A stretch of 51,953 bases of DNA, from NCBI RefSeq assembly GCF_008042145.1, contig NZ_RDBH01000129.1, forward strand, positions 1,726,158 to 1,778,110. The letters are read 5' to 3'. Position numbers and translations under genes: made by a program. The first letter of the stretch is position 1; every line of letters begins with the position of its first letter. Below, piece by piece: positions 15,947 to 51,953 of the stretch. Source of the stretch: Streptomyces sp. adm13(2018) (GTDB lineage Bacteria; Actinomycetota; Actinomycetes; Streptomycetales; Streptomycetaceae). The notes under the pieces are model-generated. The model was not told where the DNA came from. It saw only the letters and a program-made list of their open reading frames with translations, and did no database searches.

Positions 15947-17019
15947 ATGATGCGCCACCTCATCTCGGCCGCCGACCTCACCCGCGACGACGCCGTCCTG
16001 ATCCTCGACACCGCCGAGGAGATGGCCCGGGTGGCCGACCGGCCCATCCGGAAGCTGCCGACCCTGCGCGGCCGGACCGTCTGCAACCTGTTCTTCGAGG
16101 ACTCCACCCGGACCCGGATCTCCTTCGAGGCCGCCGAGAAGCGCCTCTCCGCCGACGTCATCAACTTCGCGGCCAAGGGCTCCAGCGTCTCCAAGGGCGA
16201 GTCCCTCAAGGACACCGCGCAGACCCTGGAGGCCATGGGCGTCGACGCCGTCGTCATCCGCCACGGCGCCTCCGGAGCCCCGTACCGCCTCGCCACCTCC
16301 GGCTGGATCGACGCCCCCGTCATCAACGCCGGCGACGGCACCCACCAGCACCCCACCCAGGCCCTCCTGGACGCCTTCACCATGCGCCGCCGCCTCGTCG
16401 GCCGCGACGCCGGACTCGGCCAGGACCTCGCGGGCAAGCGGATCACGCTCGTCGGCGACGTCCTGCACAGCCGGGTCGCCCGCTCCAACGTCGACCTGCT
16501 GCACATGACGATGGCGTGCTCCGGCATCTTCGCCATCCGCTCGCCGTCGAGCCCGTACCGGCGGGAGTACTCGCGCTCGGTGGGGAAGAAAGCGGCGTTC
16601 ATCCGCTCCCGCTGCACGCGCAGCATCATGACGGCGTCGGACTTCGGCAGCACGCGGTCGAGGTCGTACGAGACCTCGCAGGGCCAGGTCTCGACGCCGT
16701 CATGATGCTGCGCGTGCAGCGGGAGCGGATGAACGCCGCTTTCTTCCCCACCGAGCGCGAGTACTCCCGCCGGTACGGGCTCGACGGCGAGCGGATGGCG
16801 AAGATGCCGGAGCACGCCATCGTCATGCACCCCGGCCCCATGGTCCGCGGCATGGAGATCACCGCCGAGGTCGCCGACTCCGACCGCTGCACGGTCGTCG
16901 AGCAGGTCGCCAACGGCGTCTCCGTCCGGATGGCCGTCCTCTACCTGCTGCTCGGCGGCAACGACTCCGACTCCGCCGCCCCCTCCCCCAGCACCCCCCG
17001 CACCGAGGAGAGCAAGTAA
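15947..17019 (+). pseudogene. pyrB: aspartate carbamoyltransferase PyrB, disrupted by an inverted duplication
   Basis: ATCase joins carbamoyl phosphate and aspartate. Residues 1-186 (15947-16504) are normal, with the carbamoyl-phosphate motif STRTR (53-57), HQHPTQ (133-138) and [12 protein letters not shown]. After ...DLLH the DNA switches to the reverse complement of sequence further down the same gene (16504-16691). It then resumes in another frame at [13 protein letters not shown] and runs through HPGPMVRG to the TAA at 17019. Reading on in frame gives a 252-residue chimera with about 67 unrelated residues. The aspartate-domain part between DLLH and [10 protein letters not shown] is missing from the plus strand. 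As written the gene cannot make active enzyme. The ATG at 15947 follows GGAGAG. Confidence 0.93.
16504..16827. repeat. 136-base perfect inverted repeat inside pyrB
   Basis: The left arm 16504-16639 is the exact reverse complement of the right arm 16692-16827; the 52-base spacer is 16640-16691. The spacer, read on the minus strand, encodes [16 protein letters not shown], the genuine pyrB sequence that should precede the right arm. The whole block 16504-16691 is therefore an inverted copy. Joining its reverse complement to 16828 restores a continuous pyrB frame through [10 protein letters not shown]. Both arms agree at every base I compared. Confidence 0.95.
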
Positions 17020-32182: not shown

Positions 32183-32629
32183 TCAGCCGTTGCGCGGGCC
32201 CGGGACTCCTGGGACGCGGTGGGCTCCGCCCTCGGCGTCACCAAGCAGGCCGTCCACCGCCGTTATGGTGCCCGGCTGGGGCGCCCGCCGGGCACCATAA
32301 CGGCGGTGGACGGCCTGCTTGGTGACGCCGAGGGCGGAGCCCACCGCGTCCCAGGAGAAGCCGAGGGAGCGGTCGAAGTCGACCGCGGCGGTCACCAGGG
32401 TCTCGACGCTGTCCCGCAGTTCCTGGGCGAGCCGGACGGTGGGGGCGGGGGCCCGCCCGTAGACGACGAAGCCCGTGGACGGGCCGGAGCGGCGAGGGCG
32501 GTAGACATTGCCCAGCTGGGCCGTGAGCGTGCGCAGTGCGTCCACCTGCCGCCGGACCCGCTCGATGTCCCGCACCAGCAGGTGCAGACTCGCCCGGGCC
32601 TGGGCGTCGTGGGTGGCGTGGTCGGCCAT
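32183..32629 (-). CDS. small HTH protein with 3' end altered by an inverted duplication
   Basis: The gene starts at the minus-strand ATG 32629 ([15 protein letters not shown]) after AGAGG. Residues 10-40 are likely helical, and a conserved-looking [23 protein letters not shown]-type segment follows. A helix-turn-helix is at about 90-113 ([20 protein letters not shown]), similar to sigma region 4-like HTHs. From about residue 117 (ARRAPQPG...) the sequence is the antisense of its own HTH-coding DNA and ends at an arbitrary stop (148 residues). The native C-terminus is therefore missing or displaced. The position between priA and fmt matches a conserved Streptomyces hypothetical. DNA binding is inferred; target unknown. 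Confidence 0.75.
32206..32357. repeat. 71-base perfect inverted repeat at the 3' end of the HTH gene
   Basis: The left arm 32206-32276 is the exact reverse complement of 32287-32357; the spacer is 10 bases. The right arm carries the sense HTH coding sequence of the minus-strand gene, so the left arm is the extra inverted copy. This is far longer than any terminator stem in the window except the comparable structure in pyrB. The GC-rich stretch 32001-32182 beyond it shows no convincing gene. It may hold the displaced 3' end. Confidence 0.93.
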
Positions 32630-51876: not shown

Positions 51877-51953
51877 TGCCGTGCCCCGGGAACGCGAGCG
51901 CGCCGCGCCCCGGACAGGGGGGCGCGGCGCGCTCGCGTTCCCGGGGCACGGCA
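51877..51953. repeat. 35-base perfect inverted repeat ending at the window edge
   Basis: 51877-51911 is the exact reverse complement of 51919-51953, with a seven-base spacer. It starts 44 bases after the ROK stop and ends on the last base of the window, so the arms may be longer. It could be an exceptionally strong terminator or the visible part of another inverted duplication. Confidence 0.85.

Follow-up and report, generated by a model that had tools for sequence, protein, structure and literature searches.

Fold-back mutations of template-switch type in living cells, as in microhomology-mediated break-induced replication (MMBIR), leave a direct-inverted-direct order of sequence, with microhomology at the joins and a local deletion. 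Chimeras of phi29 amplification are described as inverted joins with deletion of the intervening piece and complementarity of 2-21 nucleotides (nt). Of 475 chimeras from amplified E. coli DNA, 406 (85%) were inverted, with complementarity of up to 21 nt (Lasken and Stockwell 2007, PMC1855051). To these two systems we compare an inverted duplication within pyrB, the gene for aspartate carbamoyltransferase (ATCase), in 51,953 nt of Streptomyces sp. adm13(2018); this whole stretch is called the window below. Judging from sequence comparisons, the inversion is almost certainly an artefact of the draft assembly that does not exist in the organism. We favour this explanation because fold-backs of the same type recur in the assembly, many of them at runs of N, and because one of them breaks the only dnaG found.

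The two arms of the inverted repeat in pyrB (16504-16639 and 16692-16827) are 136 nt long, 100% complementary and separated by 52 nt. The runner-up in the same 2.2 kb has arms of 29 nt at 79%, and the pyrB arms are therefore far beyond chance. These dimensions, first given by a sequence-only reading of the window, proved exact on re-examination, and translation confirmed that the spacer encodes on its minus strand the pyrB residues named there. That reading had also called for a comparison with pyrB of relatives. We used the uninterrupted genes of G015 and G004 (L005 and L006; 328 and 326 amino acids). Measured against both, direct pyrB continues to window position 16505, equivalent to pyrB nt 559, and starts again from 16692, equivalent to nt 669. 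Between them, positions 16504-16699 are an inverted copy of pyrB nt 609-804. The order proposed earlier, an inverted copy followed by pyrB in another frame, stands; the copy, put at 188 nt (16504-16691), is 196 nt long. Similarly, a stretch is indeed absent after residues DLLH, of 49 nt (pyrB nt 560-608) or about 16 residues in place of about 18. The left junction shares 2 nt (CA), as had been read. The right junction, for which CGAC had been given, shares up to 8 nt (CGACGCCG) when compared with G004 and fewer when compared with G015.

The net length change is +77 nt, and the pyrB frame therefore shifts. From its start at 15947 it is correct to about codon 186, continues into antisense sequence and stops at 16705, giving 252 amino acids. 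Residues 3-185 match the NCBIfam aspartate carbamoyltransferase profile PRK00856.1 with 234.4 bits, which is below the cut-off of 263 because the frame is truncated. The assembled frame contains PF02729 only and the intact protein of a relative (P0001) contains PF02729 and PF00185, so that the two carbamoyltransferase domains of a functional ATCase are not found together in one assembled frame. The features are collected in Table 1.

Table 1. Parts of the assembled pyrB and other fold-backs of the window (window positions)
Feature	Position	Strand	Remarks
5′ part of pyrB, correct frame, about 186 codons	15947..16505	+	NCBIfam PRK00856.1 and ungapped match to L005/L006
Inverted copy of pyrB nt 609-804; holds left arm 16504-16639 and spacer 16640-16691	16504..16699	-	196 nt, 96% to L005/L006 on the opposite strand
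3′ part of pyrB, other frame, to stop	16692..17019	+	right arm 16692-16827 is its first 136 nt
Second fold-back	32206..32357		arms 32206-32276 and 32287-32357, 71 nt, perfect, 10 nt apart; 136 nt of G004, G015 and G331 absent
Third, small fold-back	51877..51953		arms 51877-51911 and 51919-51953, 35 nt, perfect; a 100-N gap of the scaffold follows immediately

The pyrB locus resembles the chimeras of multiple displacement amplification (MDA) in its inverted join, in the deletion of an intervening 49 nt and in its 2 and up to 8 shared nt, which are within the range quoted above. It differs from those chimeras in having two junctions in an assembled consensus; they were single reads obtained after amplification of one E. 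coli cell (PMC1855051). The same direct-inverted-direct anatomy, microhomology and local deletion liken it to an MMBIR-type mutation. However, such a mutation does not explain why fold-backs recur throughout one assembly and cluster at its gaps.

To measure this recurrence, perfect inverted repeats with arms of at least 40 nt lying within 5 kb of each other were scanned. The sample of the assembly comprised 851,953 bases, made up of the window with 20 stretches of its scaffold C34 (451,953) and 20 stretches of C17 (400,000). We found 35 pairs, 19 on C34 including the window and 16 on C17, or about one per 25 kb of sample. A few of them share or overlap arms (L109, L122, L044, L055), so that the distinct places are somewhat fewer than 35. 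Arms are 42-267 nt long (median 95), and the spacer is 300 nt or less in 25 of the 35 pairs. In contrast, no pair was found in 400,000 bases of G015 (closed), 180,000 of G003 (draft) and 160,000 of G030 (draft), 740,000 bases in all.

We then related the pairs to the gaps of the assembly. The N runs of the sample comprise 49 that are exactly 100 N long, 27 single N and 2 others. An arm ends within 2 nt of such a run in 15 of the 35 pairs; in 2000 random placements of these 35 pairs the mean was 0.14 and the maximum 3. No N adjoins the pyrB copy. Indeed, the window contains no N at all, and its final base directly precedes a 100-N gap of the scaffold. Another draft of the genus, G065, has the same 100-N and single-N runs. 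It showed 3 pairs in 60,000 bases (L100, L102, C197), all three touching N runs, and a pipeline common to the two assemblies is possible.

Fold-backs away from N were compared with G004, G015 and G331 in three further cases, the second fold-back of the window, L058 and L051. The second fold-back of the window turns back on itself, and its left junction has no shared word. Gene calls spanning positions 32206-32357 are unreliable. L058 lacks 73-108 nt, the number varying with the relative used; their place is taken by 272 nt copied in inverted orientation from the left flank, and the left junction has 20 nt in common. L051 lacks 98 nt of G004 and has there 148 nt of its left flank as an inverted copy, with 9 nt common at the left junction; this copy was detected against all three relatives. 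Including pyrB, all four of these fold-backs away from N lack 49-136 nt of the relatives and contain flanking sequence in inverted copy. The stretches missing here have a GC content of 0.77-0.82 in G004, the mean of the G015 sample being 0.724; taken together, however, the 109 nt that separate the direct parts of pyrB have 0.72. In these four cases, high GC as the cause of gaps is only a hint.

Without its C-terminal helicase-binding domain, DNA primase is not expected to sustain life in E. coli. The L051 event, which has the same build as that in pyrB, sits in the primase gene dnaG (L051:14366-16390, equivalent to G000:C34:714366-716390). The assembled frame of 674 amino acids matches G004 DnaG (630 amino acids) to residue 439 and then becomes antisense; the last 186 residues, 445-630, are encoded in another frame. 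The assembled protein keeps the catalytic domains and PF10410 and lacks the DnaB-binding domain PF08278, present in the relative. The assembly yielded no second dnaG. Because such a primase is not expected to support life, the dnaG fold-back should be false, as far as the essential role of the C-terminus in E. coli can be carried over to Streptomyces. This result also bears on the idea that the strain is a true hypermutator for fold-back inversions, its duplications being real and widespread. The density of perfect inverted duplications would agree with that. However, dnaG would then have been broken, mutation has no reason to halt at assembly gaps as in 15 of the 35 pairs, and G065, which shares the gap style, has the same fault. 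We regard a hypermutator as extremely improbable.

Alternatively, a real and recent double template switch of MMBIR-like type could have destroyed pyrB, leaving a uracil auxotroph that lives by salvage on rich medium. The identical arms and the 2 and up to 8 nt shared at the junctions would suit such an event. So would the intact state of the other pyr genes tested. The gene lies between pyrR and pyrC, with carB further on, and PyrR (302.4 bits, cut-off 230), PyrC (764.6, cut-off 538) and CarB (1613.8, cut-off 599) all exceed their NCBIfam cut-offs; the earlier view that the rest of the operon is intact holds for these genes. Moreover, neither the OTCace_N matches nor the NCBIfam profiles revealed a second ATCase in the assembly. 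OTCace_N matched at three places, on C34 (the broken pyrB), C17 and C301. As back-up ATCases, the C17 match was rejected as an ornithine carbamoyltransferase, judged by eye and not by profile, and C301 remained below both ATCase cut-offs (136.6 bits for 263 and 141.9 bits for 236.95). Its best profile score was for ornithine carbamoyltransferase (229.3 bits, cut-off 306). The C301 gene (L003, G000:C301:19511-20425) encodes a 307-residue carbamoyltransferase near a contig end, below every NCBIfam cut-off and nearest to the ornithine carbamoyltransferase family. A search of the assembly for an intact pyrB or the missing 49-nt piece elsewhere did not find either; apart from the pyrB locus itself, there were just two weak hits (41 and 48 nt; C334 and C49).

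Against a real mutation stand the 35 such structures in the sampled bases, of which 15 lie at N runs, the one that breaks the only dnaG found, and the distribution of PyrB in the genus. In a table read by eye, PyrB is matched at an E value of 1e-165 or better in 385 of 392 genus genomes, our own being counted in the 392. The seven without such a match are our genome (2e-116), G103, G106, G163, G222, G366 and G399, and four of the seven are at most 86% complete. Among named genomes, all of the best 80 of 586 records match at least residues 1-314 of the 328 in PyrB; the titles are Streptomyces for all but one of the 80, which is titled Microtetraspora. A true loss by template switching is therefore judged very unlikely. 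Of the two readings offered at the outset, the evidence strongly supports a chimera in the assembly and disfavours a recent mutation giving a uracil auxotroph.

The inverted copy might also be functional, as a regulatory hairpin, a recoding signal or part of a split gene. No support for a function was found; a perfect hairpin of 136 nt would be very stable if real. A 30-base word across the junction had no match in the other genomes of genome_contigs, from which records very near our own genome are possibly omitted, and the plasmid collection yielded one irrelevant hit. In addition, many such structures occur in the assembly, and this one disrupts the pyrB frame. A function is the least probable of all these explanations and is in practice refuted.

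We return to the assembly artefact, for which chimeric fold-back reads are the likely source. Template molecules or reads would fold back or switch strand at short shared words, and the switch would join a stretch to its own reverse complement with deletion of the intervening piece. With true coverage lacking at some places, the assembler or a gap-closing program would extend contig ends into such reads. Some extended ends would then stop at an N gap. Others, including those in pyrB, would meet and be merged, which gives sequence that is false although it has no gap. Ordinary libraries of such GC-rich DNA could equally well supply the reads, as hairpins or through strand switching, in place of amplified DNA. 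Several observations weigh against an artefact. A genuine template switch of recent date would account just as well for the identity of the arms and for the short words shared at the junctions. There is no N next to the pyrB event, and the same is true of 20 of the 35 pairs. The comparison with relatives covered just 4 of these pairs, and some of the 35 may be natural. The genome is scored 99.96% complete with 0.41% contamination, although such scores miss local errors. Finally, phi29-amplified Illumina libraries were reported to assemble about as well as unamplified ones, and amplification alone therefore need not cause such errors (PMC4060946).

Overall, the claim that pyrB is destroyed is not supported, since the same structure is present throughout the assembly, many times at N runs and once in dnaG. 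The gene loss lacks credibility, and in the strain itself pyrB is probably intact. More generally, a gene that seems lost in this draft, or in others whose gaps have the same style (G065, for example), may not be lost at all, despite the completeness score of 99.96% for this genome. The scan for inverted repeats (at least 40 nt, within 5 kb), combined with a check for N runs, provides a quick quality test, which separated this assembly from three clean ones.
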